From Actinoallomurus purpureus (GTDB lineage: Bacteria > Actinomycetota > Actinomycetes > Streptosporangiales > Streptosporangiaceae), in contig NZ_JAMXMY010000011.1 of NCBI RefSeq assembly GCF_024055795.1, positions 186,001-250,000 on the forward strand: a stretch of DNA of 64,000 bases. Reading direction: 5' to 3'. Each line of letters begins with the position of its first letter. Positions within the stretch are counted from its first letter, which is position 1. Shown piece after piece: positions 32,947-58,930 of the stretch. Made by a program: the position numbers and the translations under genes. The notes beneath the pieces are model-generated. The model was not told where the DNA came from, did not search any database, and saw only the letters and a list, made by a program, of their open reading frames with translations.

Positions 32947-32960
32947 TAGAACAGATTCTA
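32947..32960. promoter_or_regulatory. KstR-type operator before the igr-like operon (TAGAACAGATTCTA)
   Basis: It is palindromic at 12 of 14 positions and matches TNNAACNNGTTNNA except for one base (A for G of GTT). It sits 36-49 bp upstream of the ligase GTG and would overlap the -10 region of the leftward promoter, a repressor position. Confidence 0.75.
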
Positions 32961-33025
32961 ATATGTGTCCACTACCGGAGATCGAGGACCACCCACAAGG
33001 CGATGTCAGGGCTCGCTTACCTCGG

Positions 33026-33074
33026 CTAAACCTGTTCGGGCCCGCAACATGCCGGTAATGCATAACGTGTTCTC
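33026..33074. promoter_or_regulatory. Two weaker KstR-type boxes before the TetR/KstR-like gene
   Basis: CTAAACCTGTTCGG (33026-33039) and CATAACGTGTTCTC (33061-33074) both keep the AAC-NN-GTT core but lose the outer T/A. The second lies 67 bp upstream of the regulator's GTG and suggests autoregulation. Confidence 0.5.
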
Positions 33075-33140
33075 ACCGGCGGTAGGCTGATCCCTGACAC
33101 GCGCGGACGGGGCACCGCGCCCCCAGCCCAAGGAGTCGTC

Positions 33141-33734
33141 GTGACGGCAGAGTCCGCAGCCGCCAGCCACCAGGGGGTCCGCTCCCGCAGCCAGCACCAG
33201 CGCCGCCGGCGCATCGTCCAGGCGGCCGCCGCCCTCGCCTCCCGTGGCGGGGTCGAGGCGATGCAGATGCGCACCGTCGCCGAGCGCGCCGGCGTCGCCC
33301 TCGGCACGCTGTACCGCTACTTCCCGTCCAAGATGGACCTGGTCGTCGCCGTGGTCAGCGAAGAGATGGACACCCTCGAGGGCAGTCTCGATCGCCGCCC
33401 GCCCCGCTCGGCGACCGCCGCCGGGCGCGCCGTCGAGGTGCTGATGCGCGCCACGCGCGGGCTGATGCGCGAGCCGGAGCTCGCCGACGCACTGATCCGG
33501 TCACTCCTGCTGTCGGACGTCAAGACCGACTTCGGCAACCGCATGGCCGGCCTGCTGGGGCGGGTGACGGCGACGGAGGCCGACGGGGAGGGCGGGGAGA
33601 GCCGGGTCCTCCTGCGCTCGCTCAGCAGCGTGTGGGTGATGGAGATGCTCGAGATGCTCCGCGGCCACGCCACGAACGAGGAGATCCAGGCGCGGCTGGA
33701 GATCGCGGCGGACCGCCTGCTCGCCGGCTTCTGA
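33141..33734 (+). CDS. kstR: KstR-like TetR repressor of steroid catabolism
   Basis: This 197-aa protein has the N-terminal segment RRRRIVQAAAALASRGGVEA, MQMRTVAERAGVALGTLYRY and FPSKMDLVVAVV, which closely follows mycobacterial KstR (IASKGGYEAVQMRAVADRADVAVGTLYRYFPSK, as I recall it). KstR represses cholesterol uptake and degradation genes and is released by a CoA-thioester intermediate. The gene is divergent from the igr-like operon and is surrounded by genes with KstR-type boxes. The GTG at 33141 follows AAGGAG. The assignment as KstR rather than another steroid TetR rests on remembered sequence and on the boxes. Confidence 0.85.
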   Translation: MTAESAAASHQGVRSRSQHQRRRRIVQAAAALASRGGVEAMQMRTVAERAGVALGTLYRYFPSKMDLVVAVVSEEMDTLEGSLDRRPPRSATAAGRAVEVLMRATRGLMREPELADALIRSLLLSDVKTDFGNRMAGLLGRVTATEADGEGGESRVLLRSLSSVWVMEMLEMLRGHATNEEIQARLEIAADRLLAGF

Positions 33735-33765
33735 CGACGGGGACGCCGGTCCGTCGGCCAGACGG

Positions 33766-33965
33766 ACGGGCGGACGGGCGGACGGTCGGGCGGGCGGACG
33801 GTCGGGCGGGCGGACGGTCGGGCGGGCGGACGGACGGTCGGGCGGGCGGACGGTCGGGCGGGCGGACGGACGGTCGGGCGGGCGGACGGTCGGGCGGGCG
33901 GACGGTCGGGCGGGCGGACGGTCGGGCGGGCGGACGGTCGGGCGGGCGGACGGACGGGCGGCGGA
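33766..33965. repeat. G-rich 16-bp minisatellite
   Basis: About eleven tandem copies of GGGCGGGCGGACGGTC follow the kstR-like stop. Two units carry an extra GGAC, making them 20 bp. The array is about 200 bp of almost pure G/C with GGG tracts regularly spaced on the plus strand, so it could form G-quadruplexes. On the minus strand it would read as RPTVRPP repeats, but no start or ribosome site supports translation. Confidence 0.9.
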
Positions 33966-34041
33966 CCGAGGCCGGAAGCCGGGGGGAATGCGAGCACCGG
34001 CCCTCGGCGACAGGCCGGGGCCGGGACTCGAAGGGGGACGC

Positions 34042-34164
34042 TCAGGCGGCCCAGAGCTGCCGGTACATCCCGGTACGGACCAGGTGGAGGACCAGCCGGG
34101 TGGCGAGGGCCTCAAGCAGCATCACGAGCGCCTTGGCGAGGACGGTCGACACGAGGTCAGGCAT
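34042..34164 (-). CDS. Small amphipathic protein (40 aa), putative
   Basis: The ATG at 34164 is preceded by AGGTG at 6 bases. The product begins MPDLVSTVLAKALVMLLEAL and ends TGMYRQLWAA. It is a single hydrophobic/amphipathic helix with several arginines. It lies 105 bp downstream of the P-type ATPase on the same strand. It may be a small membrane-associated peptide; there is no family match from memory. Confidence 0.45.
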   Translation of the reverse strand: MPDLVSTVLAKALVMLLEALATRLVLHLVRTGMYRQLWAA

Positions 34165-34268
34165 TGGGGCACCTAGGGTGTTCGGGGACACTTACGCGTG
34201 AATTATGCCTTGCTGTCCGTATCGGTCGCGACCTGTGGGAATGTCGGGGAAATGAACATCTTCCCAAG

Positions 34269-39035: not shown

Positions 39036-39053
39036 GACGCGGGGGCCCGGCCG

Positions 39054-39662
39054 TCAGACGCTCTCGGGGGCCTTCGACCGGCCGGTCGCGGACTCTCCCG
39101 CGGTTCCCGACCGGCTCCCGGCTCCGCTCTCGCTCGCGGTCCTGGCCGCGGTCGCAGTCCTGGCCGCGGTCGCGGTCCTGGCCGTCGTTCGGGACCGGCC
39201 CGTCGCTCCGGACCGGCTCGTGGACCGAGACGTGCTCGCCGGCTGTCCCGTTTCCTGCGCGCTCGGCGCCCGGGAGGGCTGCGCCGGTCCTCGCTTGCCG
39301 AATGCCCGGCGCGCCATCATCGTTCCGACGCCGATGGCGGCGGCGACCGGCCAGTCGATGATGCCGAACACGGCGGCGGCTCCCAGACCGCCGTAGAACA
39401 TCAGCCGGTCCGGAGGCGGCAGGAAGGAGACGGCGACCCGGCCCGCGTCGCCGACGTAGGAGATCCCACGGGTGGGAACGGGGACCTGCATGACCTTCAC
39501 GCGCGGCATGACGACGGGGACGGGAACCGTCGCCCCGTGCTCAGCGCGCCGCGACGTCCGCTCCAAGGTCGCCGATCGGCCGCCCCGGCCGGTGGCCGTG
39601 GTCTTCGCCGATGCCCTCCGCGACGTGGACTTCTCTTTCGTGGCCTTCTTCTGCGCGGCCAT
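39054..39662 (-). CDS. Basic membrane-anchored protein upstream of CtpI (202 aa)
   Basis: The N-terminus is highly basic (AAQKKATKEKSTSRRASAKT). Residues about 80-125 contain two hydrophobic stretches (LMFYGGLGAAAVFGIIDWPV, AAAIGVGTMMARRAF). The C-terminal 80 residues are low-complexity Arg/Ser/Thr/Ala with TARTATAARTA repeats. The ATG at 39662 is preferred because a run of Gs lies 9 bases before it; 39671 is an alternative. It is co-directional with the ATPase 18 bp downstream and may be an accessory or nucleoid-tethering protein. It is not in a family I recognise. Confidence 0.65.
   Translation of the reverse strand: MAAQKKATKEKSTSRRASAKTTATGRGGRSATLERTSRRAEHGATVPVPVVMPRVKVMQVPVPTRGISYVGDAGRVAVSFLPPPDRLMFYGGLGAAAVFGIIDWPVAAAIGVGTMMARRAFGKRGPAQPSRAPSAQETGQPASTSRSTSRSGATGRSRTTARTATAARTATAARTASESGAGSRSGTAGESATGRSKAPESV
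39136..39189 (-). repeat. Three 18-bp coding repeats
   Basis: Three tandem units of GCGGTCCTGGCCGCGGTC encode alternating TA(R)TA residues in the C-terminal tail of the basic membrane protein. Confidence 0.8.
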
Positions 39663-39956
39663 GCCGACCATCCCCCCCGTGCCGGAACACCGTTTTCCGC
39701 TCTCGAAGCTCCACGTTGCTCCGCGGAAGGCCTCGACACAAGCCCACAAGGGGAGATCCGGACAGACCTTTTCCCTGGTCAGGGTCATACGAACGGCAAC
39801 TTCGGGCGATTTGCGCCAGACGCCGGACTTGCAGCAGGCCCGACAGTCCGCGAACGCCGTTCGCCGCACGATGGAGACCGTCGGTGGGGTCGCCGACGGA
39901 CCGCGGTGACGGGCACAGGCATCATCGAACTACGTCTCGACCGTCTGAGGAGGAAG

Positions 39957-42509: not shown

Positions 42510-42523
42510 AGGAACAAGTTCTC
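42510..42523. promoter_or_regulatory. Secondary KstR-type box (AGGAACAAGTTCTC)
   Basis: The AAC-AA-GTT core with a perfect GAACAAGTTC-like symmetry (GAAC/GTTC) lies 90-103 bp upstream of the thiolase start. The outer T/A are not conserved. Confidence 0.45.
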
Positions 42524-42564: not shown

Positions 42565-42578
42565 TAGAACGGGTTATA
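42565..42578. promoter_or_regulatory. KstR-type operator before fadA5 (TAGAACGGGTTATA)
   Basis: This is a full match to TNNAACNNGTTNNA located 35-48 bp upstream of the thiolase ATG, where it would overlap the promoter. Confidence 0.75.
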
Positions 42579-42579
42579 G

Positions 42580-43809
<1,230 letters not shown>

Positions 43810-44031: not shown

Positions 44032-45252
44032 ATGCCGATCGACATCATCACGCCGGAGATCTACGAGCGAGGGGGCTTCCCGGATGAGGGCTTCCGCCGG
44101 CTGCGACGGGAGTCCCCGGTGTACTGGCACGAGGACCCCAACGACAGCTCGCCGGGCTTCTGGGCGGTGACCAAGTACGACGACGTGGTCCACGTCTCCC
44201 GGCATCCGGAGCTCTTCTCCTCGGCCGAGCGTACGTCGATGTTCGATGAGTTCACCGACGATGACATCGCGCTGTACCGGCTGATGATGCTCTTCATGGA
44301 CCCACCGCAGCACACCCGCCAGCGCGGCTACGTCAACAAGGGCTTCACGCCACGGATGATCAAACAGCTCGAGGAGCACATCCGCGACGTCAGCCACCAG
44401 CTGATCGACGACGTGGTCGAGCGCGGCGAGGCCTGCTTCGTCCGCGACATCTCCGCGCCGTTCCCGCTGTATGTGATCTGCGAGCTCATCGGCGCGCCCG
44501 TGGAGGACCGCGGCAGGCTGTTCGACCTGTCCAACGCCCTGATCGGCTTCGACGACCCGGACTACGGCACCTCCACCGAGCACGCGCGCGACGTCTCGGC
44601 GGAGGTCCTCACCTACGCCCACGAGCTGGCCGCGTACCACCGGGAACACCCGGGCGACGACATCGCCACCAAGCTGCTGCAGCCCGACGCCGACGGCCGG
44701 GTGCTCAGCGCGGACGAGTTCGCGATGTTCATCCTGATGCTGATCATGGCGGGCAACGAGACGACGCGGAACGGCGCGTCGGGCGGCATGCTGGCCTTCT
44801 TCGAGCACCCGGACCAGTGGCGGCGACTGCTCTCCAACCAGGGTCTGATCAAGACCACCGCGGACGAGATCGTGCGCTGGGTCAGCCCGGTGAACCTGTT
44901 CCGGCGGACGGCGATGCGCGACACCGAACTGCGCGGGCAGCGCATCAAGGAAGGCGACAAGGTCGTCATCTTCTACCCCTCGGCCAACCGCGACGAGGAC
45001 GTGTTCGACGACCCGTACACCTTCGACGTCGGCCGCGACCCGAACCCCCACATCGGCTTCGGGGGCGGCGGCCCGCACTTCTGCCTCGGCACGCACCTCG
45101 CGCGGCTGGAGCTGACCGTGCTGTTCGAGGTGCTCCTGGAGCGGATGCCGGACATCGAGCAGGCGGGCGAGGCGCGCCGCCTGCGGTCCAACTTCATCAA
45201 CGGCATCAAGGAGCTACCGGTCCGATTCACCCCCTCGAAACCGCGCAAATAG
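44032..45252 (+). CDS. Cytochrome P450, CYP125-like
   Basis: This 406-aa P450 has the I-helix MAGNETTRNG, the ExxR DEIVRWVSP and the heme loop FGGGGPHFCLG. MLFMDPPQHTRQRGYVNKGF and AFFEHPDQW are very like CYP125, the steroid C26/C27 hydroxylase that starts side-chain oxidation, though CYP124/CYP142 relatives remain possible. It has its own KstR-type box, and the box for the next gene overlaps its stop codon. A closely related P450 follows after one SDR gene. Confidence 0.88.
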   Translation: MPIDIITPEIYERGGFPDEGFRRLRRESPVYWHEDPNDSSPGFWAVTKYDDVVHVSRHPELFSSAERTSMFDEFTDDDIALYRLMMLFMDPPQHTRQRGYVNKGFTPRMIKQLEEHIRDVSHQLIDDVVERGEACFVRDISAPFPLYVICELIGAPVEDRGRLFDLSNALIGFDDPDYGTSTEHARDVSAEVLTYAHELAAYHREHPGDDIATKLLQPDADGRVLSADEFAMFILMLIMAGNETTRNGASGGMLAFFEHPDQWRRLLSNQGLIKTTADEIVRWVSPVNLFRRTAMRDTELRGQRIKEGDKVVIFYPSANRDEDVFDDPYTFDVGRDPNPHIGFGGGGPHFCLGTHLARLELTVLFEVLLERMPDIEQAGEARRLRSNFINGIKELPVRFTPSKPRK

Positions 45253-45263
45253 AACAAGTTTCA
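45250..45263. promoter_or_regulatory. KstR-type operator before the SDR (TAGAACAAGTTTCA)
   Basis: This is a full match to TNNAACNNGTTNNA. Its first three bases are the TAG stop codon of the upstream P450, so operator and stop codon are fused. It lies 82-95 bp upstream of the SDR start. Confidence 0.72.
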
Positions 45264-45344: not shown

Positions 45345-46220
45345 ATGGCCGTCTCGCCCAACGGAAACGACGTCTCGCTCAAGGACAGAGTCGTCGCGGT
45401 CACCGGTGCCGGCAACGGCCTCGGCCGCGCGCACGCGCTGGAATTCGCCCGCCGGGGGGCGCGGCTGGTCCTCAACGACCTGCCGGGCGAGGCCGTCCGG
45501 CGGACCGCCGAACTCGTGCGCAAGCAGGACGCGGAGGCGGTGATCGCCGAGGGCGACGTCGCCGACTGGTCGACCGGCGAGGTGCTGCTGAAGACCGCGC
45601 TGGAGGCCCACGGGACCCTCGACGTCCTGGTCAACAACGCGGGCATCACGCGCGACCGCATGATCTTCAACATGTCCGAGGCGGAGTGGGACGCCGTCGT
45701 GAACGTCCATCTGAAGGGCCACTTCGTGATGGCCCGCCACGCGACGGCGTACTGGCGGGCCCGGTCGAAGGAGGTGGGCGGCCCGGTCTACGCCCGGATC
45801 GTCAACACCGCGTCCGAGGCCTTCCTGCTCGGCTCGCCCGGCCAGCCGAACTACGCGGCGGCCAAGGGCGGCATCGCCGCGCTCACGGTCGCCATCGCCC
45901 AGTCGTGCGGGCGCTACGGCGTGCGCGCCAACGCGATCTGCCCGCGCGCCCGTACGGCCATGACGGCCGGCGTCTTCGGCCCGCCGCCCGAGGACGCCCC
46001 CGACCCCCTTGCCCCGGAGCACGTGTCACCGCTGGTCGCGTACCTGGCCTCGCCCGCCGCCGAGGACGTCACCGGTCAGGTGTTCGTCGCGTACGGCGGC
46101 ACCGTCACGGTCATGGCGCCGCCCACGGTGGCCCTGCGGGTGACGGGCTCGACCACGGAGGCGTTCGCCGAGGCGCTGAGCGGACTGCCCGCCGGAGGAT
46201 TCAAAACAGCCGACCTGTGA
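45345..46220 (+). CDS. Short-chain dehydrogenase (Hsd4A-like)
   Basis: This 291-aa SDR has the cofactor loop AVTGAGNGLGRAHALEFARR, NNAGITRD, and the catalytic NTASEAF … YAAAKGG. The layout with long C-terminal segment resembles the 3-hydroxyacyl-CoA dehydrogenase domain of MFE-2 and Hsd4A, which act on steroid side-chain CoA thioesters. The ATG at 45345 follows GAAGGAG. It is 13 bp upstream of the second P450 and likely co-transcribed with it under the box at 45250. Confidence 0.85.
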   Translation: MAVSPNGNDVSLKDRVVAVTGAGNGLGRAHALEFARRGARLVLNDLPGEAVRRTAELVRKQDAEAVIAEGDVADWSTGEVLLKTALEAHGTLDVLVNNAGITRDRMIFNMSEAEWDAVVNVHLKGHFVMARHATAYWRARSKEVGGPVYARIVNTASEAFLLGSPGQPNYAAAKGGIAALTVAIAQSCGRYGVRANAICPRARTAMTAGVFGPPPEDAPDPLAPEHVSPLVAYLASPAAEDVTGQVFVAYGGTVTVMAPPTVALRVTGSTTEAFAEALSGLPAGGFKTADL

Positions 46221-47467: not shown

Positions 47468-47488
47468 GTGGCTTTCGCCACCTTTTTA
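47468..47488 (+). terminator. Hairpin and T-tract after the second P450
   Basis: GTGGC-TTTC-GCCAC is followed by CTTTTT, a small classical rho-independent terminator 32 bp after the P450 stop. Confidence 0.55.
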
Positions 47489-47577: not shown

Positions 47578-48843
47578 GTGGGTGAGGTCGGCGAACCATT
47601 GCGCGTGGCCCTGCTCTCCTATCGGAGCAAGCCGCACTGCGGCGGCCAGGGCGTCTATCTGCGGCACCTGTCCCGGGAGCTGGCCGAGCTGGGGCACCGC
47701 GTCGTCGTGTTCTCCGGCCAGCCCTACCCCGAGCTCGACCGCGACGACATCGTGCTGCACAAGGTGCCGAGCCTGGACCTGTACGGAGACGACGACCCGT
47801 TCCGCACGCCGGCGCTGTCGGAGTACCGCGACTGGATCGACGTCCTGGAGTTCGCGCACATGCGGACCGGCGGCTTCCCCGAGCCGCTGACCTTCAGCCT
47901 GCGGGCGCTGCGCGAGCTGCGCAAACGCCGCCACATGTTCGACGTCGTGCACGACAACCAGGTGCTCGGCTACGGCAACCTCGCCATCCCCCGCCTCGGC
48001 CTGCCCCTCGTCACCAGCATCCACCACCCCATCAGCGTGGACCGCCGGATCGAGATCGAGGCCGCCAAGGGCCTCAAGCAGCGGTTCGGCAAGCGCCGCT
48101 GGTACGGCTTCGTCGCGATGCAGGCACGGGTCGCCCAGCGCGTCGGCCCGATCCTCACCGTCTCCGAGTCGTCCAAGCGCGACATCATCCGCGACTTCCA
48201 GGCACCCCCCGAGCAGGTGCACATCCTGCCGCTCGGCGTCGACACCCACTGCTTCCACCCGCGCGGCGAACGGGTCCCCGGCCGCATCGTCGCCGTCGCC
48301 AGCGCCGACTCCCCGCTCAAGGGCGTCGCGACGCTGCTGCGCGCGGTCGCCAAGCTCGCCACCGAACGCGACGTCCACGTCATCGTCGTCAGCAAGCCGA
48401 CCCCCGGCGGGCCCACCGACAAGCTGGTCGGCGAGCTGTCGCTCGGCGACCGCGTCCGGTTCGTCTCCGGCATCTCCGACGAGGAGCTCGGCGAGCTGCT
48501 GGCCAGTGCCGAGATCGCGGTCGTGCCCTCGCTGTACGAGGGCTTCTCCCTGCCCGCCGTCGAGCACATGGCCTCGGGCACGCCGCTCGTCGCCAGCCGT
48601 ACGGGCGCGCTGCCGGAGGTGGTCGGCGACGCGGCGATCCTCGTCGAGCCCGGCGACGTCGAGGAGCTGGCGGGCGTACTCGGCCGGCTGCACGACTCCC
48701 CGGAGGAACGCGAGCGGGTCGGCGCGTCGGGCTACGCGCGCGTGCAGGAGCGGTTCACCTGGTCCGCCGTCGCACGAGCCACCGTGGGCCACTACGAGAC
48801 CGCCATCGCCCGCCGCCGCGGGCACCGCCCGGAAGGAGCATGA
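47578..48843 (+). CDS. GT4-family glycosyltransferase
   Basis: This 421-aa retaining glycosyltransferase has GT-B fold features: the N-terminal LLSYRSKPHCGGQGVYLRHL, VVHDNQVLGYG and the donor site YEGFSLPAVEHMASGTPLVA. The GTG at 47578 follows GGGAGGGG; a TTG at 47560 after AGGAG is an alternative. Its stop overlaps the methyltransferase start (ATGA). The operon with a methyltransferase and an alpha/alpha-barrel protein suggests synthesis of a glycolipid or methylated saccharide, but no product can be named. Confidence 0.88.
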   Translation: MGEVGEPLRVALLSYRSKPHCGGQGVYLRHLSRELAELGHRVVVFSGQPYPELDRDDIVLHKVPSLDLYGDDDPFRTPALSEYRDWIDVLEFAHMRTGGFPEPLTFSLRALRELRKRRHMFDVVHDNQVLGYGNLAIPRLGLPLVTSIHHPISVDRRIEIEAAKGLKQRFGKRRWYGFVAMQARVAQRVGPILTVSESSKRDIIRDFQAPPEQVHILPLGVDTHCFHPRGERVPGRIVAVASADSPLKGVATLLRAVAKLATERDVHVIVVSKPTPGGPTDKLVGELSLGDRVRFVSGISDEELGELLASAEIAVVPSLYEGFSLPAVEHMASGTPLVASRTGALPEVVGDAAILVEPGDVEELAGVLGRLHDSPEERERVGASGYARVQERFTWSAVARATVGHYETAIARRRGHRPEGA

Positions 48844-49601
48844 CCCTGCTGACCGTGGACTTCAACAGGTTCCGCGTGTCGCCCGGCGAGCACGTGCTCG
48901 ACATGGGCTGCGGCGCGGGCCGGCACGCGTTCGAGCTCTACCGGCGCGGGGCGCACGTCGTGGCGTTCGACCGGGACGAGCGGGAGCTGGCCGAGGTCGC
49001 GACGATGTTCGCCGCGATGGACCTGGAGGGCGAGGCGCCCGAGGGCGCGTCGGCGCGCACGGTGACCGGCGACGCGCTGCGCCTGCCGTTCCCCGACGAC
49101 ACCTTCGACAAGATCGTCGCAGCGGAGGTGCTCGAGCACATCCCGGACGACATGGCGGCCATGGCCGAGCTGCTCCGGGTGCTCAAGCCGGGCGGTGAGC
49201 TCGCCGTGACCGTGCCCTCGTGGCTTCCCGAGCGCATCTGCTGGGCGCTGTCGGAGGACTACCACACCGCCCCGGGCGGCCACGTGCGCATCTACACCCG
49301 CGCCGAACTCGAGGCCAAGCTCAAGTCGACCGGCTTCGAGGTCGGCGACCACCACCACGCCCACGGCCTGCACGCGCCGTACTGGTGGATCAAGTGCGCG
49401 GTGGGCGTGAACAACGACGGTCACCCGCTCGCCAAGGCGTACCACCAGGTGCTCGTCTGGGACATCATGAAGCGCCCCCTGGCGACGCGACTCGCCGAGC
49501 GGGTGCTCAATCCGGTCGTCGGCAAGAGCGTCGTCGTCTACTTCACCAAGCCCACCGCCTCCGTCACCGAGGAGCAGGAGCAGACGCATGCGGCGGCCTG
49601 A
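48840..49601 (+). CDS. Class I SAM-dependent methyltransferase
   Basis: This 253-aa methyltransferase has motif I LDMGCGAGRHAFEL, the acidic VVAFDRDERELAEV, LPFPDDTFDKIVAAEVLEHI and LKPGGELAVTVPSW. The C-terminal region (GHVRIYTRAELEAKLKSTGF) is typical of UbiE/Methyltransf_11 proteins. It starts inside the glycosyltransferase stop and overlaps the next gene by 14 bp, so the three proteins are tightly co-expressed. Confidence 0.9.
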   Translation: MTLLTVDFNRFRVSPGEHVLDMGCGAGRHAFELYRRGAHVVAFDRDERELAEVATMFAAMDLEGEAPEGASARTVTGDALRLPFPDDTFDKIVAAEVLEHIPDDMAAMAELLRVLKPGGELAVTVPSWLPERICWALSEDYHTAPGGHVRIYTRAELEAKLKSTGFEVGDHHHAHGLHAPYWWIKCAVGVNNDGHPLAKAYHQVLVWDIMKRPLATRLAERVLNPVVGKSVVVYFTKPTASVTEEQEQTHAAA

Positions 49602-50703
49602 GGCCGTACCCGGAGTCCTGACCGCCGACGACATCCTCATCACCGCTCGCAGCATCGCCGCCCAGCAGGAGCCCTCGGGCGCCATCCCGTGGTTCGCGCC
49701 GATCGACGGGCTCCCCGGCCACGTCGACGCGTGGAACCATGTCGAGGCCGCGATGGCGCTCTCGGTGGCCGGGCTCCGCACCGAGGCGCGCCGGGCGTAC
49801 GAATGGCTGCGCGCGAACCAGCGCCAGGACGGCTCCTGGGCCGCCAAGTGGGTTCTCAGCGAGGTCACCGAGCCCGGCGGGGAGTCCAACCACGCCGCCT
49901 ACATCGCCGTCGGCGTCTGGCACGAGCTGCTGCTCACCGGCGACCAGGAATTTGCCGAGCGCATGTGGCCGGCCGTCCGCCGCGCGATCGAGTTCACCCT
50001 CGGCCTGCAGACCGCCCGCGGCGAGATCATCTGGATCCGGCACGCGGACGGATCGCCCGACGACCACGCGCTGCTCACCGGCTGCTCGTCCATCCACCAG
50101 TCGCTGCGCTGCGCCGTCGCCCTCGCCGAACGCCTCGACGAGCCCCAGCCCGACTGGGAGCTCGCCGCCGACCAGCTCGGCCACGTCGTCGCCTCCCACC
50201 CGGAGGCGTTCGCCGACAAGAACCGCTTCTCGATGGACTGGTACTACCCCGTGCTCGGCGGCCCGCTGCGCGGCCCCGCGGCGTACCGCCGGATCGACGA
50301 GGGGTGGGAGACGTTCGTCGTCGACGGCCTCGGCTGCCGGTGCGTCTCCGACCAGCCGTGGGTCACCGGCGCGGAGTCGTGCGAGCTCGTGCTCGCCCTC
50401 GACGCGATGGGCGACACGGCCCGCGCCCGCGAACTGTTCGCCACCATCCAGCACCTGCGACACGACGACGGCTCGTACTGGACAGGCTGGCAGTTCGCCA
50501 ACCAGCGCCACTTCCCTGGCGACCGCTCGACCTACACGGCCGCCGCCGTCATCCTCGCCGCCGACGCCCTCGCCGACACCTCCCCCGCCGCCCGCCTCTT
50601 CAAAGAGGTCGACGGCCGCCCCCTCGGCCCCTCCGAACCCGCCGACCCGGTCGCCTGCGGCTGCGAGTCGGAGTCCCTGGCCGACACGGTCCACAGCCGC
50701 TGA
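49588..50703 (+). CDS. Alpha/alpha-barrel protein (prenyltransferase/six-hairpin-like)
   Basis: This 371-aa protein shows repeated helical hairpins with Gly-Ser-Trp turns (RANQRQDGSWAAKWVLSEVT, RHDDGSYWTGWQFANQRHF), as in prenyltransferase/terpene-cyclase-like or glycoside-hydrolase six-hairpin barrels. Acidic residues (DAWNHVEAAMAL, WIRHADGSPDDHALL) could be catalytic. It lacks a DxDD cyclase motif, so cyclase activity is unlikely. It is the third gene of the glycosyltransferase operon and may hydrolyse or bind the glycan. Confidence 0.75.
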   Translation: MRRPEAVPGVLTADDILITARSIAAQQEPSGAIPWFAPIDGLPGHVDAWNHVEAAMALSVAGLRTEARRAYEWLRANQRQDGSWAAKWVLSEVTEPGGESNHAAYIAVGVWHELLLTGDQEFAERMWPAVRRAIEFTLGLQTARGEIIWIRHADGSPDDHALLTGCSSIHQSLRCAVALAERLDEPQPDWELAADQLGHVVASHPEAFADKNRFSMDWYYPVLGGPLRGPAAYRRIDEGWETFVVDGLGCRCVSDQPWVTGAESCELVLALDAMGDTARARELFATIQHLRHDDGSYWTGWQFANQRHFPGDRSTYTAAAVILAADALADTSPAARLFKEVDGRPLGPSEPADPVACGCESESLADTVHSR

Positions 50704-51384: not shown

Positions 51385-51777
51385 GTCGATCACTCTCCAG
51401 GTTCTCTTCTTTTTGCCCAGCCGTGAAGCGGGACAGCCCTGGCCATCCAGGGTGTACTTAGGAATGTCCGGATTCGGGGCGGATCAGCAGGTCGGCGCCG
51501 GTCGCGTACCAGGGCGATTTCAAAGTCCCTTGTGTCAGGCTCTAGTGAAACAAACGGGGATGAAGTTCCCGATGTGCGTCGCAACGCCCGAAGACCCGTT
51601 TCGGCGTCGCGGGACCGGGTGGCGGGCGCAACGTGACGTCGGTGAACGCCGAATCACTCGAGTTGCCGTCGGTCGTCGCCGAGGCGGTCGTCCGCGCGGT
51701 ATGCGGCGGCTGACCGGGCCGTCCGGGATACGAAATCACGTTGCCCGAGACATCCCCGTCCACCAGCATCGGGCGGT
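51385..51777. other. Intergenic region without recognised genes
   Basis: This is a 393-bp gap between the small hydrophobic protein and the NADAR gene. It holds the promoters of both divergent genes; open frames on either strand lack ribosome sites and typical codon bias. Nothing else was recognised. Confidence 0.5.
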
Positions 51778-52323
51778 ATGCGCGTCGAGGATCTGGTCCA
51801 GTTGGAAGGGCAGGGCGAGCTGCCGGAGTTGCTGCTGTTCTGGGGGCATCGGCCGCCGAAGGGCGGTGGCGTCGGCAAGGGGTGCCTGAGTCAGTGGTAT
51901 CCGGCGCCGTTCACGGTGGACGGCGTGCGCTACGCGACCGCCGAGCACTTCATGATGGTCGGCAAGGCGCGGCTGTTCGGGGATGCCGAGGCGGAGAAGG
52001 TCGTGCTCGCCGACGACGACCCGGGCAAGGCCAAGGGCGCCGGGCGCAAGGTGCGCGGGTTCGATGAGGAGACCTGGGCCGAGCGCCGGTACGACCTGGT
52101 CGTCGCGGCCAATGAGGCGAAGTTCGGGCAGCATCCCGCGTTGCGCGACTTCCTGCTGGCGACGGGTGATCGGGTGCTCGTGGAGGCCAGCCCGTACGAC
52201 ACCGTGTGGGGAATCGGGCTGTCGGCGTCGCAGCCGGAGGCGCGGCATCCGGCTCAGTGGCGCGGCCTCAACCTGCTCGGCTTCGCGCTGATGGACGTGC
52301 GGGGCTCGCTCGCCGGACGGTGA
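51778..52323 (+). CDS. NADAR-family protein (YbiA-like)
   Basis: This 181-aa protein has all NADAR blocks: LSQWYPAPFTVDGVRYATAE with HFMMVGKARLF, KFGQHPALRDFLLATGD, ASPYDTVWGIGLS and WRGLNLLGFALMDVR. NADAR proteins cleave N-glycosidic bonds of riboflavin intermediates or ADP-ribosylated substrates, and some reverse ADP-ribosylation of nucleic-acid guanines. No ADP-ribosyltransferase toxin is next to it, so a housekeeping role is as likely as defence. Confidence 0.9.
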   Translation: MRVEDLVQLEGQGELPELLLFWGHRPPKGGGVGKGCLSQWYPAPFTVDGVRYATAEHFMMVGKARLFGDAEAEKVVLADDDPGKAKGAGRKVRGFDEETWAERRYDLVVAANEAKFGQHPALRDFLLATGDRVLVEASPYDTVWGIGLSASQPEARHPAQWRGLNLLGFALMDVRGSLAGR

Positions 52324-52331
52324 GGCGCCGG

Positions 52332-53096
<765 letters not shown>

Positions 53097-53121
53097 TCAT
53101 AGAGAGAGGGTGTGTCGATCA

Positions 53122-53159
53122 TGTAAACGTTTCCATACACTCCCGTGTAATCGTTTCCA
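53122..53159. promoter_or_regulatory. Two RbsR (LacI-type) operators
   Basis: TGTAAACGTTTCCA (53122-53135) and TGTAATCGTTTCCA (53146-53159) share the LacI-family core with a central CpG. Their centres lie 24 bp apart, immediately upstream of rbsR and the ribose operon, where autoregulation and control of rbsACBKD are expected. Confidence 0.8.
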
Positions 53160-53180
53160 CGCCGCTGATCAGGAGGCTCG

Positions 53181-54182
53181 ATGGCCGGCATCAAGGATGT
53201 CGCCGCACACGCGGGCGTGTCCGTCGCCACGGTGTCGCGCGTGCTCAACGACAGCCCGAGAGTCACCGCGGAGACACGGGAGAAGGTCCGGGACGCCATG
53301 CGGGCGCTGCGGTACCGGCCGAACGGCGTCGCGCGCTCGCTGCGCACCGAGGCCACCCGGACGCTCGGACTGATCATCGGCGACATCCTCAACCCTTTCT
53401 TCGCCGCCATGGCCCGGGCCGTGGAGGACGAGGCGCGCGCCGCCGGCTACACCGTGGTCATCGGCAACGCCGACGAGCGCCCCGAGCAGCAGGACCACTA
53501 CGTGCGCACGCTCCTGGAGCAGCGGGTCGACGGCCTGCTGATCTGCCCGACCGCGGAGACGACCCCGCTCGTCGAGGACTGCGTACGGTCCGGAAGCCCT
53601 CTGGTGTTCCTCGACCGGACGCTGCCCGGCCTCGACGTGCCGGCCGTACGCGCCGACGGCACCGAGGCCATCCACGACCTCGTCCGGCACATCCACCGGC
53701 TCGGTCACCGCCGCGTCGCGTTCATCTCCGGACCCGAGCTGCTGTCCACCGGCCGGGAGCGGACGCGGGCGTTCCTGGACGCGATGCGAGAATGCGACCT
53801 GGACATCCGTGACGAATACCTCGAAACGGGTGACTTCCAGGCAGCCAGCGGGCGGGCCATCGCGGCCCGGTTCCTCGACCTGCCGCACCCTCCCGAAGTG
53901 ATCTTCACGGGAGACAACCTCATGGCGCTCGGCGCCCTGGACGAGATCCGGGCGCGCGGGCTGCGGATCCCCGACGATGTCGCCCTCGCCTCGTTCGACG
54001 ACGTGGCCTGGTTCGTCCACCTGGACCCGCCGATCACCGCGATCACCCAACCCGCCGAAGAGCTCGGACGGCACGCGGTGCGCGTGCTCCTGGAGCGCGT
54101 CGAGCGGCGCCCCGTCGAGTCGGTCGTCCTGCCGGCCCGGCTCGTGATCCGCCGTTCCTGCGGAGAAACGGAGAGCACATGA
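53181..54182 (+). CDS. rbsR: LacI-family ribose operon repressor
   Basis: This 333-aa protein has an N-terminal LacI helix-turn-helix (GIKDVAAHAGVSVATVSRVL) and hinge helix (RPNGVARSLRTEATRTLGLI). The sugar-binding core includes LIIGDILNPFFAAMARAVED, DGLLICPTAETTPLVEDCV and PDDVALASFDDVAWFVHLDP. The ATG follows CAGGAGG. It is the first gene of a ribose operon and its stop overlaps the rbsA start (ATGA), so repressor and transporter are coupled. Confidence 0.92.
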   Translation: MAGIKDVAAHAGVSVATVSRVLNDSPRVTAETREKVRDAMRALRYRPNGVARSLRTEATRTLGLIIGDILNPFFAAMARAVEDEARAAGYTVVIGNADERPEQQDHYVRTLLEQRVDGLLICPTAETTPLVEDCVRSGSPLVFLDRTLPGLDVPAVRADGTEAIHDLVRHIHRLGHRRVAFISGPELLSTGRERTRAFLDAMRECDLDIRDEYLETGDFQAASGRAIAARFLDLPHPPEVIFTGDNLMALGALDEIRARGLRIPDDVALASFDDVAWFVHLDPPITAITQPAEELGRHAVRVLLERVERRPVESVVLPARLVIRRSCGETEST

Positions 54183-55675
54183 CAGAGGAGATCCTGCGGG
54201 TACGCGGGCTGCGCAAGCGGTTCCCCGGGGTCGTGGCGCTCGACGGCGTCGACTTCGACCTTCGCCCGGGCGAGGTGCACGTCCTCCTCGGCGAGAACGG
54301 CGCGGGCAAGAGCACGCTGATCAAGATGCTGTCCGGCGCGTACCACCCGGACGAGGGCACGATCTTCATGGACGGCCGGGAGACCGCCATCCGCACCGCC
54401 GAGGACGCCCAGCGGCACGGCATCGCCACGATCTACCAGGAGTTCAACCTCGTACCCCAGCTGACCGTGGCGGAGAACCTCATGCTCGGCCGGCCGCCCC
54501 GGCGGTTCGGGTTCGTGGACAAGAAGGCGATGTACCGCCACGCCCAGGAGCTGCTCGACCGGGTCGGCGTTGACGCCGACCCGCGGGCGCCGCTGGCGAG
54601 CCTCGGCATCGCCCGGATGCAGATGGTCGAGATCGCCAAGGCGCTCGGCCTCGACGCGCGCGTGCTGATCATGGACGAGCCGACCGCCGTGCTCACGACG
54701 TCCGAGGTGCAGCGGCTGTTCACGATCGTCCGGCAGCTCAAGGAGCAGGGCGTGGCGATCGTCTTCATCACCCACCACCTGGAGGAGATCGCCCAGATCG
54801 GCGACCGGGTCACGGTCCTGCGGGACGGTGCCTCGGTGGCGGAGGTGCCCGCCGACACGCCCGAGGAGGAGCTGGTCCGGCTGATGGTCGGCCGCTCCAT
54901 CGACCAGCAGTACCCACGGGAACGTTCCACCCAGGGCGCTCCCCTGCTGGAGGTCCGGGGCCTCACCCGCAAGGGCGTCTTCGAGGACGTCTCCTTCGAG
55001 GTGCGCGCCGGCGAGGTCGTCGGCCTGGCCGGGCTGGTGGGCGCCGGTCGTACCGAGGTGGTCCGGGCGATCTTCGGCGCGGACCCGTACGACTCCGGCG
55101 AGGTCCTGGTGGACGGCCTGCCACTGCCGCGCGGCAAGGTCACCGCCGCCCTGGAGGCCGGGCTCGGCCTCGTGCCCGAGGACCGCAAGGGCCAGGGGCT
55201 CGTCCTCGGCGCGAACATCCGGGAGAACCTCGGCCTGGTGACGATGCGCCGGGCCACGCACGGCGGCTTCGTCGACCGCGCGGGCCAGGCCAAGGCCGCC
55301 GCAGAGGTCGCCGAGCAGCTCGGTGTGCGGATGAGCGGCCTCGGCCAGGAGGTCCGCACGCTGTCCGGCGGCAACCAACAGAAGATCGTCATCGGCAAGT
55401 GGCTGCTGGCCGAGGCGAACGTCCTCATCCTCGACGAGCCGACGCGCGGCATCGACGTCGGCGCCAAGGTCGAGATCTACCAGCTCATCAACTCCCTCAC
55501 CGCCGCCGGACGCGCGGTTCTCATGATCTCCAGCGACCTCCCCGAGGTCCTGGGCATGAGCGACCGGGTGCTCGTGATGGCGCGCGGGAGGCTCGCCGGC
55601 GAACTCAGCGCCGCCGAAGCGACCCAGGACTCGGTGATGGCACTCGCCGTCGGCGAATTGGAGGAAACGGCATGA
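54179..55675 (+). CDS. rbsA: Ribose ABC transporter, tandem ATPase
   Basis: This 498-aa protein has two ABC cassettes. The first has Walker A GENGAGKSTLI, Walker B VLIMDEPTAVLT and a divergent signature (SLGIARMQMVEIAKAL instead of LSxGQxQ). The second has EDRKGQGLVLGANIRENLGL, LSGGNQQKIVIGKWL and ILDEPTRGIDVGAK. It energises import of ribose or a related pentose with RbsC. The second cassette lacks a normal Walker A (LAGLVGAGRTEVVRAIF), as usual for RbsA. Confidence 0.94.
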   Translation: MTEEILRVRGLRKRFPGVVALDGVDFDLRPGEVHVLLGENGAGKSTLIKMLSGAYHPDEGTIFMDGRETAIRTAEDAQRHGIATIYQEFNLVPQLTVAENLMLGRPPRRFGFVDKKAMYRHAQELLDRVGVDADPRAPLASLGIARMQMVEIAKALGLDARVLIMDEPTAVLTTSEVQRLFTIVRQLKEQGVAIVFITHHLEEIAQIGDRVTVLRDGASVAEVPADTPEEELVRLMVGRSIDQQYPRERSTQGAPLLEVRGLTRKGVFEDVSFEVRAGEVVGLAGLVGAGRTEVVRAIFGADPYDSGEVLVDGLPLPRGKVTAALEAGLGLVPEDRKGQGLVLGANIRENLGLVTMRRATHGGFVDRAGQAKAAAEVAEQLGVRMSGLGQEVRTLSGGNQQKIVIGKWLLAEANVLILDEPTRGIDVGAKVEIYQLINSLTAAGRAVLMISSDLPEVLGMSDRVLVMARGRLAGELSAAEATQDSVMALAVGELEETA

Positions 55676-56631
55676 CGACGGGAACGCTGCGCCTGCGCAA
55701 GGGCAGTTCCATACTGAGCGAGAACGGCTCGCTCATCGGGCTAGTCGTCCTGCTCGTCGCCCTGACGCTGCTGTCGGGCGACTTCCTGACGGTCACCAAC
55801 CTGCTCAACGTCGGCGTCCAGGCGGCGGTCACCGCGATCCTCGCCTTCGGGCAGACCTTCGTCATCATCACGTCGGGCATCGACCTGTCGGTCGGCGCGG
55901 TCGCGGCCCTGTCGGCGGTCGTCCTCGCCTGGACCGCCACCAGCCACGGCATGGCCTGGCCCCTGGCCACCGGCTTCGCGCTCATCGTCGGCATCGCGTG
56001 CGGCCTCGTGAACGGCGCGCTGATCACGTACGGGAAGCTGCCGCCGTTCATCGCGACACTCGCCATGCAGGGCATCGCGCGCGGCCTCGGCCTCGTCATC
56101 TCCCAGGGCAGCCCCATCGCCCTGCCGGACTCGGTGTCGCACGTCGGCGACACCATCGGCGGCTACCTGCCGGTCCCGGCGATCGTGATGCTCCTGATGG
56201 GCGTCATCACCGCCGTCGTGCTGAACCGGACGTACGCCGGCCGCGCGATGTACGCGATCGGCGGCAACGAGGAGGCCGCGCGGCTGTCCGGGATCAAGGT
56301 CACCCGGCAGAAGCTCATCACGTACGCCCTCGCGGGCGGCTTCGCCGCCGTCGCCGGGATCGTGCTGGCCGGCCGGCTCGCGTCGGCTCAGCCGCAGGCC
56401 GCCCTCGGCTACGAACTGGACGCCATCGCCGCCGTCGTCATCGGCGGTGCCAGCCTCTCCGGCGGCAAGGGCAAGGCCCTCGGCACCTTCGTCGGCGCGC
56501 TCATCCTCGCCGTGCTCCGCAACGGCCTGAACCTCCTGTCGGTCTCCGCCTTCTGGCAGCAGGTCGTGATCGGGATCGTCATCGCCCTCGCGGTGCTCCT
56601 CGACACGCTGCGCCGCCGCCAGGCCAGCTGA
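55672..56631 (+). CDS. rbsC: Ribose ABC transporter permease
   Basis: This 319-aa permease has about eight to ten membrane segments and the sugar-permease signature FGQTFVIITSGIDLSVGAVA, GLVNGALITYGKLPPFIATL and AIGGNEEAARLSGIKVTRQK. The ATG overlaps the rbsA stop (ATGA). It forms the membrane channel with RbsA and receives sugar from RbsB. Confidence 0.94.
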   Translation: MTTGTLRLRKGSSILSENGSLIGLVVLLVALTLLSGDFLTVTNLLNVGVQAAVTAILAFGQTFVIITSGIDLSVGAVAALSAVVLAWTATSHGMAWPLATGFALIVGIACGLVNGALITYGKLPPFIATLAMQGIARGLGLVISQGSPIALPDSVSHVGDTIGGYLPVPAIVMLLMGVITAVVLNRTYAGRAMYAIGGNEEAARLSGIKVTRQKLITYALAGGFAAVAGIVLAGRLASAQPQAALGYELDAIAAVVIGGASLSGGKGKALGTFVGALILAVLRNGLNLLSVSAFWQQVVIGIVIALAVLLDTLRRRQAS

Positions 56632-56658
56632 AGAATCACATCGAAAGGTCTCACCATC

Positions 56659-57621
56659 ATGCAGTTCACCAAGCCGGCCGCGATCGCGGCCGCCGGAGCG
56701 ATCCTGGCCCTCGGCCTCACGGCCTGCAACAACGGCTCCTCCTCTTCCGCCGGCGGCAGCGGTGGCGGTGGCGGCGACATCAAGATCGGCCTGTCCGTCT
56801 CCACGCTCAACAACCCGTACTTCGTGCAGCTGCGTCAGGGCGCCGAGGCGGAGGCGAAGAAGGAGGGCGTCAAGATCACCACGACGGACGCCCAGAACGA
56901 CGCCTCGCAGCAGGTCAACCAGGTGCAGAACTTCGCCAGCCAGAGCATGAAGGCGATCATCATCAACCCGGTCGACTCCTCGGCCGCCGCGCCCGCCGTG
57001 AAGGCCGCGGACCGCAGCAAGATCCCCGTGATCGCCGCCGACCGCGGCGTCACCGGGGCGACGGTCACCCAGACCGTCGCGTCCGACAACGTCGCCGGCG
57101 GAAAGCTGGCCGCCCAGGAGCTCGGCAAGGCGCTCGGCGGCAAGGGCAAGGTCGCCGTCCTGCAGGGCACGGCGGGCACGTCGGCCGCCCGTGACCGGCA
57201 GCAGGGCTTCGCCGAGGGCATCAAGGCCTTCCCCGGCATTCAGGTCGTCGCCCAGCAGCCCGCCGACTTCGACCGGACCAAGGGCCTGGACGTCATGACC
57301 AACATGCTGCAGGCCCACTCCGACATCACGGGTGTGTTCGCGGCCAACGACGAGATGGCGCTGGGCGCGATCAAGGCGCTGGGCGCGAAGGCCGGCAAGC
57401 AGGTCAAGGTGGTCGGCTTCGACGGCTCGCCGGACGGGCTCAAGGCCGTCCAGGCGGGCACGCTCAGCGCCGACGTCGCCCAGCAGCCGGTGCTCCTGGG
57501 CCAACTGGCCGTACAGTCCGCCGTGAAGGCCGCGAAGGGCGGCAAAATCGAGGCGACCGTGGCCGTCCCCGTGAAGGTGGCCACGAAGGACAACGTCGCC
57601 CAGTTCACGAACGGAGCCTGA
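56659..57621 (+). CDS. rbsB: Ribose-binding lipoprotein
   Basis: This 320-aa substrate-binding protein has a lipoprotein signal peptide ending at LGLTAC (Cys23 would be lipidated) and a Gly/Ser linker. The mature part has the ribose-binding core IKIGLSVSTLNNPYFVQLRQ, GTAGTSAARDRQQGF and GVFAANDEMALGAIKAL. Aromatic and charged residues near the sugar site fit RbsB. It lies 27 bp after rbsC. Confidence 0.94.
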   Translation: MQFTKPAAIAAAGAILALGLTACNNGSSSSAGGSGGGGGDIKIGLSVSTLNNPYFVQLRQGAEAEAKKEGVKITTTDAQNDASQQVNQVQNFASQSMKAIIINPVDSSAAAPAVKAADRSKIPVIAADRGVTGATVTQTVASDNVAGGKLAAQELGKALGGKGKVAVLQGTAGTSAARDRQQGFAEGIKAFPGIQVVAQQPADFDRTKGLDVMTNMLQAHSDITGVFAANDEMALGAIKALGAKAGKQVKVVGFDGSPDGLKAVQAGTLSADVAQQPVLLGQLAVQSAVKAAKGGKIEATVAVPVKVATKDNVAQFTNGA

Positions 57622-58505
57622 TGCCGGAAAAGACCTACGACGTGCTGGTCGTCGGCTCGGTCAACGCGGACCTCGTGGTCCGCGTCGACCGGCGCCCGGC
57701 GGCCGGGGAGACCGTCCTCGGCTCGGACCTGGCCACCTACCCGGGCGGCAAGGGGGCCAACCAGGCCGTCGCTGCCGCCCGGCTGGGCGGCCGGGTGGCC
57801 TTCCTCGGCCGCGCCGGCACGGACGGGCAGGGCGACTTCCTCCGGGGCGCCCTGCGCGGCGACGGCGTGGACATCGCCCACCTGATCACCACGCCGGGCC
57901 CGAGCGGGGTCGCGCTGATCACCGTGGGCCCCGAGGGGGACAACAGCATCATCGTCTCCCCCGGCGCGAACGGCCGGGTCACCGAAAAGGACGTCATGGC
58001 GGCCGGGCCGCTGTTCGCCGACGCGTCGGTGGTCTCGCTCCAGCTGGAGATCCCCCTCGACGCCGTGCTGGCCGCCGCGCGCGCCGCCAAGGCCGCCGGC
58101 GCCCGCGTGGTGTTCAACCTGTCGCCGCCCGCCGCCGTGCCGGACGAGCTGCTCGCGCTGTGCGACCCGCTGGTCGTCAACGAGCACGAGGCCGCCTTCC
58201 TCGGGGCGAGCGATCCGGCCGGTCTGCTGGCGCGCGGCCCGCGCTCCGTCGTGATCACCCGGGGCGCGGACGGGGCCGTCGTCGCCGACGGCGGCGGCGT
58301 CATCGAGGTCCCGAGCCCGCGCGTCGAGGCGGTCGACACCACCGGGGCCGGAGACGCGTTCACCGGCGCCCTGGCCTGGCGGCTGGCGCGGGGCGACGAC
58401 CTGGCGGCGGCCGCGCGCTTCGCCACCCGCGTCGGGGCCGCCGCCGTGCGCGTCGCGGGCGCCCAGAGCTCGTTCCCGCGCCTCACCGATCTGGAGGACG
58501 TGTGA
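57621..58505 (+). CDS. rbsK: Ribokinase
   Basis: This 294-aa PfkB-family sugar kinase has VVGSVNADLVVRVDRRPAAG, YPGGKGANQAVAAARLGG and the catalytic DTTGAGDAFTGALAW motif (Asp base, GAGD anion hole). It phosphorylates ribose to ribose 5-phosphate. Its ATG overlaps the rbsB stop (TGATG), and its stop overlaps rbsD (GTGA). Confidence 0.94.
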   Translation: MPEKTYDVLVVGSVNADLVVRVDRRPAAGETVLGSDLATYPGGKGANQAVAAARLGGRVAFLGRAGTDGQGDFLRGALRGDGVDIAHLITTPGPSGVALITVGPEGDNSIIVSPGANGRVTEKDVMAAGPLFADASVVSLQLEIPLDAVLAAARAAKAAGARVVFNLSPPAAVPDELLALCDPLVVNEHEAAFLGASDPAGLLARGPRSVVITRGADGAVVADGGGVIEVPSPRVEAVDTTGAGDAFTGALAWRLARGDDLAAAARFATRVGAAAVRVAGAQSSFPRLTDLEDV

Positions 58506-58891
58506 AGCGCGGGGGAATCCTCAACGGCGCCCTCTCCGGCGCCCTGGCCCGGCTGGGGCACACCGACCAGGTGCTGATCTGCGACAGCGGCATGCCGATC
58601 CCGGCCGGTGTCGAGGTCGTGGACCTCGCGTTCGTGCCGGGCATCCCCGGCTTCGCCGAGGTGCTCGACGGGATCCTGGCGGAGCTGGTCGTCGAGGGCG
58701 CGATCGCGGCGGAGGAGGTCGTGGGCGGCAACCCCGAGTGCGACGCCCTCCTCGACGACCGGCTTCCCGCGTTGGCGTACGTGCCGCACGAGGAGCTGAA
58801 GCTGCTGGCGCACGCGGTCAAGGTCGTGGTCCGCACGGGCGAGGCGACCCCGTACGCGAACGTGATCCTCCGGTGCGGCGTGGCCTTCTGA
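58502..58891 (+). CDS. rbsD: D-ribose pyranase
   Basis: This 129-aa RbsD/FucU-family protein interconverts pyranose and furanose forms of ribose. Start region LNGALSGALARLGHTDQVLI carries the catalytic His20; CDSGMPIPAGVEVVDLA and TGEATPYANVILRCGV complete the active site. It is the last gene of the ribose operon. Confidence 0.93.
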   Translation: MKRGGILNGALSGALARLGHTDQVLICDSGMPIPAGVEVVDLAFVPGIPGFAEVLDGILAELVVEGAIAAEEVVGGNPECDALLDDRLPALAYVPHEELKLLAHAVKVVVRTGEATPYANVILRCGVAF

Positions 58892-58916
58892 CCGGAGTCC
58901 CCTTGCCCACGCTTAC

Positions 58917-58930
58917 TGAAACGTGTTCTA
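58917..58930. promoter_or_regulatory. KstR-type operator before the PPOX gene (TGAAACGTGTTCTA)
   Basis: This is a full match to TNNAACNNGTTNNA, 9 bp upstream of the GTG at 58940, so it would cover the promoter. It extends the steroid regulon beyond the unrelated ribose operon. Confidence 0.72.

Follow-up and report, generated by a model that had tools for sequence, protein, structure and literature searches.

What does a KstR-type repressor control in a genome where the enzymes of steroid-ring breakdown find no match? The question is raised by a 64,000-nucleotide stretch of the Actinoallomurus purpureus genome (assembly GCF_024055795.1, contig NZ_JAMXMY010000011.1, positions 186,001-250,000 of the forward strand, or G000:C2:186001-250000 in our numbering; hereafter the window, to which positions below refer), which carries a KstR-subfamily TetR regulator of 197 amino acids (33141..33734, + strand; hereafter 33141) and a recurring 14-bp box before genes that resemble those of steroid side-chain degradation. 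We suggest, with a probability of roughly two in three, that 33141 is a repressor of a sister group of KstR that controls side-chain-only degradation through TnnAACnnGTTnnA operators and is probably released by an acyl-CoA. The operators, their conservation, the identities of the genes by homology and the lack of any match to the ring enzymes KshA, KstD and HsaC are observed directly; how the regulator would act is set out after them.

A sequence-only reading of the window had placed five strong boxes before five transcription units, and their positions, intergenic placement and matrix ranks bear this out. Nine window sites match TNNAACNNGTTNNA with at most one mismatch, against a mean of 2.2 in 100 shuffles, none of which reached nine. 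The five boxes, exact at 42565, 43991, 45250 and 58917 and with one mismatch at 32947, are all intergenic, and the other four one-mismatch matches lie inside called genes (genes in the window were called with a simple custom caller). On the + strand, they are the operator TAGAACAGATTCTA, a conserved asymmetric variant, between the regulator gene and a ligase/FadE operon (32947..32960), and the operators of fadA5 (42565..42578), of a first P450 (43991..44004), of an SDR-P450 unit (45250..45263) and of a unit encoding a PPOX-type flavin protein, a ferredoxin and an alcohol dehydrogenase (ADH; 58917..58930). Four of the 34 exact genomic matches to TNNAACNNGTTNNA fall in the window, where the rate outside it predicts 0.21 per 64 kb (Poisson P = 6.7 × 10−5). 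An equal frequency of the pattern in coding DNA had been named as the outcome that would speak against the regulon; the core AACNNGTT instead occurs 10 times in ~9.0 kb of intergenic and three times in ~55 kb of coding DNA (Fisher P = 6 × 10−7), about 20 times more densely between genes. A looser pattern, TAGAACNNGTTCTA with two mismatches allowed, was not enriched genome-wide (105 matches versus 229 for the reversed control).

The boxes were further scored with an operator matrix drawn from intergenic boxes near regulon-type genes at 80 named loci (the best 80 of 196 confirmed; 51 distinct boxes, preselected as lying within one mismatch of the same pattern, TNNAACNNGTTNNA), in which the five boxes ranked first to fifth among the sites of the window, followed by weaker sites at 33061 and 42510 in sixth and seventh place; two of eight shuffled windows had one site each above 14 bits, compared with five in the real window. 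Six of the 80 loci belong to congeners, and a matrix freed of them (74 loci with 41 distinct boxes) again ranked the five boxes first to fifth, at 21.5-24.2 bits, with the next site at 10.3. Comparison of the host genome (G000) with seven congeners (G001-G007, some sites being readable in six only) showed the 43991 and 45250 boxes to be exact in all six readable genomes, as was the 58917 box in six of six; the 42565 box was kept within one mismatch in six of six and the 32947 box in six of seven, with two mismatches in G004. The single mismatch at 32947 is a fixed asymmetry, AACnnATT, found within 450 bp of the regulator start at 77 of the 80 named loci, or 72 of 74 once congeners are set aside, and we rejected decay as its explanation because the variant is fixed across these loci. 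Target genes at the named loci behaved similarly: an exact box lay within 450 bp at 52 of 56 loci with fadA5, nine of 11 with manT (a gene of methylmannose polysaccharide (MMP) synthesis, discussed below) and four of four with PPOX, and a box with at most one mismatch at 73 of 75 with FadE/FadD and 15 of 17 with a P450, compared with 18 of 1,417 control called gene starts. The earlier proposal of one operator family before these units thus holds, with positions conserved in the genus and in the family. Genome counts, here and below, are not independent, because the genomes are related.

Could these boxes be chance palindromes, or be read by another TetR protein? The genome contains 54 TetR genes detectable with NF033703, the KstR equivalog model, and one box elsewhere (on contig C12) flanks another TetR gene, but we regard this explanation as very improbable given that positions are conserved in genus and family, that a fixed operator lies by this regulator at 77 of 80 loci and that the recognition segment of 33141 is as in KstR.

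The regulator itself had been described as strongly resembling KstR, which stands for its DNA-binding part and its operator and not for the rest of the protein. The best matches of 33141 in the Protein Data Bank are M. tuberculosis KstR structures, but its NF033703 score, 139.8 bits, falls short of the 280-bit cut-off (canonical KstR, in four copies, gives 308-334 bits, and two KstR-like paralogues linked to kshA give 111-123); it is also alone of its kind in the genome, at 139 bits versus 45 for the next protein. Canonical KstR and 33141 share 60-72% identity in the DNA-binding part and 19-28% in the remainder, the sensor, so the operator reader is conserved and the sensor is not. The QMR...VALGTLYRYFPSK segment of 33141 matches canonical KstR, with QMH or QMN in the kshA-linked paralogues, and the KstR-type operator TnnAACnnGTTnnA is present, by sequence and conservation, at the promoter of 33141 and at its targets. 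In a tree of 63 rows, 31 window-type rows formed one clade (support 100/99), separate from 11 canonical KstR rows (94/92) and from eight kshA-linked paralogues (100/100); manT-linked regulators of family f20 fell on the window side (98/97) and the f28 regulator beside the canonical group (94/93), although the deep order of this tree is less sure because the outgroup branches are long. Judged from their sequences, 33141 and mycobacterial KstR are not orthologues. KstR binds its palindrome as a dimer, overlapping the −10 element, and represses (PMC1995591); a cholesterol-derived CoA thioester releases it (PMC6678751). McGuire et al. (PMC3388012) noted that actinomycetes at a greater distance have two or three paralogues of KstR, and one of these paralogue groups is now given an operator, targets and a probable role. 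Separately, in families f14 and f16, more distant KstR-like genes adjoin genes of the FadE type (L236 in G087, L237 in G089 and L238 in G111), with an exact box at L236.

The genes beneath these operators are, by homology, those of side-chain degradation, among them FadA5, Ltp2 and the ChsH2 domains. Leftward from the 32947 box (all − strand) run an acyl-CoA ligase resembling steroid-22-oyl-CoA synthetase (31292..32911; 565 bits, short of the cut-off of 900), two acyl-CoA dehydrogenases of the FadE type (30208..31281 and 29036..30208), a ChsH2-type zinc ribbon and OB fold fused to a MaoC domain (27615..29006) and an Ltp2-type lipid-transfer thiolase (26449..27618; PRK07855, 681 bits versus a cut-off of 469). 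To the right (+ strand) are FadA5, a steroid 3-ketoacyl-CoA thiolase (42613..43809; 629 bits versus a cut-off of 515), a CYP125-like P450 (44032..45252), an SDR (45345..46220; PRK07792, 371 bits, below the cut-off of 414) and a second P450 (46234..47436) that is a paralogue of the first. The closest solved relatives of the 44032 P450 are CYP125 proteins (526 bits to a reconstructed CYP125 ancestor and 376 to M. tuberculosis CYP125). FadA5 and Ltp2 exceed curated cut-offs, whereas the ligase, the SDR, the PPOX protein and the ADH reach no equivalog cut-off. A FadE gene stands beside the regulator at 73 of the 80 named loci. Where genes differ among congeners, the operators tend to stay: the ligase was not found at the locus in five of the seven, of which four retain the box before FadE and one (G004) has it degraded, and the SDR was not found at the locus in the same five, where the box remains before the second P450.

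Outside the window, boxes precede further genes of this kind. These include an Rv3520c-type F420 oxidoreductase (439.7 bits versus a cut-off of 335), whose box on contig C17, TAGAACCTGTTCTA, equals the 14-mer printed for Rv3520c/Rv3521 in Kendall 2007 (PMC1995591); a nitronate monooxygenase family gene; an SDR on C12; and, on C49, a DUF35-Ltp-Mce unit with one Mce-family gene. An EchA19-like gene (342.6 bits, cut-off 400) with FadD has a box that is the one-mismatch asymmetric variant: AAGAACGGATTCTA, at L053:6455 (G000:C49) between the EchA19-like and FadD genes, is a second genomic AACnnATT copy and is missed by the strict pattern. In a non-lipid context on contig C1, two exact boxes 36 bp apart (L057:7579-7628), flanked by an MFS-like gene on one side and an ABATE/CGNR zinc-finger gene on the other, are perhaps another regulator's site.

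Steroid metabolism, as the sequence-only reading had it, is thus supported by homology for the side chain, and the ring is another matter. KshA and HsaC found no match in G000 and KstD none at E values up to 10−10; three full-length FAD_binding_2 proteins considered as KstD proved to be NadB and two SDH/FRD subunits, and a 4-hydroxy-2-oxovalerate aldolase cluster on contig C33 was rejected as steroid hsaEFG, there being no box in the stretch read and nothing in the genome that matches HsaC or KshA. KshA, KstD and HsaC were likewise found in the flanks (up to 10 kb) of none of the 80 named loci. Within the genus, all three enzymes find strong matches in G001, G005 and G006; G003 and G007 lack KshA and KstD and have only weak HsaC-like matches, and the matches in G002 and G004 are all weak. 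The stretches read of the G001 and G006 ring clusters contained no exact or intergenic one-mismatch box. These are 9,10-seco clusters (L097-L099; KshA, KstD, HsaA, HsaC and HsaD-like), in G001 with a gene nearby that looks IclR-like by eye. We compared 120 relatives, 55 of them with a window-type regulator (at least 60% identity), and counted 23 as KshA-positive (matches better than ~1 × 10−60, with 12 weaker matches excluded). In seven of the 12 KshA-positive genomes that also have a window-type regulator, a second, diverged KstR-like gene lies within several kb of kshA. By sequence, the kshA-linked KstR-like paralogues (L164-L171) are a third regulator group: one degenerate box was seen in the eight loci and otherwise none beside the regulator, and a palindrome search upstream of seven of them gave one match in one of the seven and nothing shared.

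These data bear on whether the window holds an ordinary KstR cholesterol regulon, in which 33141 would be functionally KstR and sense a sterol CoA thioester while the rings are cut by undetected or distant enzymes or by community partners. Such a regulon would have the same operator and side-chain genes, with FadA5 and Ltp2 over their cut-offs and EchA19-like and Rv3520c-type genes boxed, and three congeners do have full ring clusters; we nevertheless judge it unlikely, since the sensor is diverged, the regulator reaches 140 of 280 bits and sits in its own clade, the ring enzymes find no match in G000, the ring clusters read in two congeners are unboxed and most KshA-positive genomes with a window-type regulator have another KstR-like gene by kshA.

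The last boxed unit of the window comprises a PPOX-type flavin protein whose closest solved relative is Rv2991 (58940..59392), a small single-cluster ferredoxin (59404..59595) and a zinc ADH nearest to the NDMA-dependent subfamily but below its cut-off (59652..60752), all on the + strand. All nine Streptosporangiaceae-type genomes read that have PPOX, none of them counted twice, carry the box 8-9 bp ahead of the PPOX start as placed by alignment, and where PPOX has been lost, in G001 and G006, the box remains before ferredoxin-ADH. Other loci without PPOX are divided, with ferredoxin-ADH boxed in L045, L051 and L253 and unboxed in L200, L203, L310 and L315, and the f28 genome has a PPOX gene with no box directly before it. 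The box had been taken to place the PPOX and zinc-ADH genes in steroid metabolism; the unit does belong with the regulon, and the steroid part of the claim is supported for the side chain only. In M. tuberculosis, FdxD serves CYP125-type P450s. In other genera, PPOX-ferredoxin-ADH adjoins and diverges from MeT1, a methyltransferase gene of MMP synthesis; in the window, a ribose operon (53181-58891) separates these otherwise direct divergent neighbours, and a 9.4-9.9-bit site between MeT1 and the ribose regulator gene, TGTAATCGTTTCCA (53146-53159), is perhaps the decayed box of an old MeT1 promoter.

This neighbour leads to a part of the window that had been set aside as an unrelated glycosyltransferase operon, a description that we reject on structure matches of three of its products: a ManT-type mannosyltransferase (47605..48843, +; 7QSG, 8 × 10−149), an MmpH-type MMP hydrolase (49588..50703, +; 7QSJ, 1.4 × 10−122) and a MeT1-type 1-O-methyltransferase (52332..53024, −; 6G7D, which we take to be MeT1, 1.1 × 10−79). 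The operon is, as known here from its genes, the four-gene MMP cluster, and in the family it is the regulator's conserved neighbour. The fourth gene, a methyltransferase (48840..49601, +), is recognized by its fold and by its position, that of pMeT3 in PMC9883506. A NADAR-domain gene (51778-52323) lies between MmpH and MeT1. According to Maranha et al. (PMC9883506), who describe the four-gene cluster, such polysaccharides are proposed to sequester fatty acyl-CoA; no mention of regulation or transcription was found in the main text of that paper. In 50 of the 55 genomes the regulator and manT lie on one contig, never more than 23 kb apart, and in the other five they are on different contigs. 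The DNA upstream of manT was readable in 51 genomes, of which 17 have an exact box there within 450 bp; the 10 among the 51 that lack a window-type or manT-linked regulator have none (Fisher P = 0.010). A smaller Fisher value, 3.6 × 10−4, depends on leaving out 15 genomes post hoc, and we do not rely on it. A KstR-like gene diverges from manT, with an exact box between them, in two genomes of f20 and one of f28, and in seven genomes (L202, L244, L246, L247, L248, L250 and L252) a box near the regulator precedes a gene that runs into manT in the same direction; of these seven genes, two were scanned and encode metallo-beta-lactamase-fold proteins. The f28 locus (L235, in G119) has SDR, ferredoxin and PPOX genes adjoining, and its KstR-like protein scores 253 of 280 bits.

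The same data could mean that the system serves primarily MMP and acyl-CoA homeostasis, with a regulator that senses a fatty or isoprenoid acyl-CoA and with the P450s, ferredoxin, ADH and side-chain genes acting on an endogenous branched lipid. The proximity of regulator and manT, the divergent boxed pairs of f20 and f28, loci with regulator and manT and no FadE nearby (L200-L203, and L319 of the named set) and the adjoining of MeT1 and PPOX-ferredoxin-ADH in other genera all favour this possibility, but we consider it doubtful, as FadE stands beside the regulator at most named loci, manT is unboxed in Actinoallomurus and FadA5, Ltp2 and CYP125 indicate sterol-like substrates. Less probable than the side-chain reading is a history in which the KstR operator code predates cholesterol use: its early reader might have been an acyl-CoA-sensing repressor of MMP synthesis, as in the f20 and f28 pairs; the Streptosporangiaceae-type family might then have added a CYP125/side-chain pathway that lacks ring cleavage, and in mycobacteria a related regulator might have come to control the complete breakdown of cholesterol, in which case MMP synthesis would be under KstR-type control.

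Several observations weigh against side-chain-only control by 33141. The absence of ring genes is judged by homology in a draft (9.25 Mb, 52 contigs) that is 97.9% complete, and strong KshA matches occur in 12 of the 55 genomes with a window-type regulator. The ligase and the SDR are missing at the locus in five of seven congeners, and the pathway therefore varies. Among 26 of the 30 exact boxes outside the window, inspected in their regions (C14, C19, C23 and C52 were left out), 16 lie inside called genes and 10 are intergenic, four of the latter in a lipid or regulon-type context and six not; the C12 box (L055:7414-7427), between the SDR unit and a divergent TetR gene, may be owned by either regulator. 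The weaker copies that had been listed at 33026, 33061 and 42510 (33026..33039, 33061..33074 and 42510..42523, +) fare unevenly. The last two, before the regulator gene and as a second fadA5 operator, drop with the congener-free matrix to ranks 8 and 9 (9.1 and 9.0 bits) and do not stand out, but the 33061 core is identical in all eight genus genomes and a second fadA5 site matching 42510 lies 53-55 bp upstream in six of six congeners, so that their support comes from conservation and not from the matrix; 33026 scores −1.0 bits with the same matrix, is shared only with G003 among the congeners and is unsupported as an operator. Finally, manT has no box in the genus Actinoallomurus or in seven related genomes, and in the window a terminator-like hairpin with a T tail (47468..47481, +) stands between the second P450 and manT; MMP synthesis may therefore be outside the regulon in Actinoallomurus, and we claim the link for the family and not as direct control in the window.

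From these sequences we infer binding, repression, ligand, substrate and reaction order as follows. The 33141 protein would occupy TnnAACnnGTTnnA operators before its own gene, before the ligase/FadE/ChsH/Ltp2 operon, fadA5, the two CYP125-like P450 units and PPOX-ferredoxin-ADH; it would also reach the EchA19-like/FadD, DUF35-Ltp-Mce and Rv3520c-type genes and probably the nitronate monooxygenase and SDR genes. By analogy with KstR, it would repress these units until released, probably by a pathway CoA thioester; its divergence in the sensor and the link to MMP across the family suggest that this ligand is probably an acyl-CoA different from the cholesterol-derived one. Once induced, a P450 fed by the ferredoxin would hydroxylate a branched side chain of the sterol or isoprenoid type, the ADH would oxidize the alcohol and the ligase would activate the side chain, which β-oxidation and retro-aldol cleavage would then remove, halting at the ring system.

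If side-chain-only control by 33141 is correct, it would separate the KstR operator, the KstR sensor and steroid-ring breakdown, which are usually treated as one, and would represent a widespread side-chain-only regulon; should sterols be what it acts on, these bacteria would spare the ring. Intact sterol rings are otherwise obtained in industry by blocking ring enzymes. It would also give a place to PPOX, ferredoxin and ADH genes of unknown role and provide a first candidate regulator for MMPs, making their proposed fatty acyl-CoA role testable via a KstR-type repressor, and it carries a warning for annotation, as KstR matches under the curated cut-off in these families would denote a different group. 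In one open-access library, we found nothing joining KstR with methylmannose, nothing joining MMP with a transcriptional regulator and, among the matches listed (titles and starts of abstracts), nothing relevant on Actinoallomurus with steroid; a search for KstR with these family and genus names gave no mention of KstR among the matches listed, SCO2319 appeared in Kendall 2007 only, and of the family terms looked for in passages of Bergstrand 2016 (PMC4810484), only Thermomonospora appears.

Set beside known systems, 33141 most resembles KstR of mycobacteria (Rv3574 / MSMEG_6042), with which it shares the TnnAACnnGTTnnA operator, the DNA-binding domain and operators at its own gene, and from which it differs in its clade, its score (140 of 280 bits), its sensor (~25% identity) and the fixed asymmetric operator by the regulator. 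Targets are also shared with the mycobacterial KstR regulon (FadA5, Ltp2, CYP125-like, Rv3520c-type and EchA19-like), but here no ring-cleavage genes were found in the genome and the family has a link to MMP genes. The igr-type and side-chain genes of M. tuberculosis encode two FadE proteins, ChsH2/MaoC, Ltp2, FadA5 and CYP125, all of which have counterparts here, with the differences that the ChsH2-type and MaoC parts are fused, a ligase leads the operon and the regulator is divergent. The kshA-linked paralogues, which lie close to kshA, belong to the same superfamily as 33141 and differ in their QMH or QMN recognition segment and in having, one degenerate match aside, no box next to the regulator. 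All four genes of the MMP cluster of nontuberculous mycobacteria, as described in PMC9883506, are present in the window, three by structure matches (7QSG, 7QSJ and 6G7D) and the fourth by position and methyltransferase fold; at two f6 loci read, where canonical KstR lies elsewhere, manT has no box, whereas in the window's family the cluster is tied to a KstR-type regulator.

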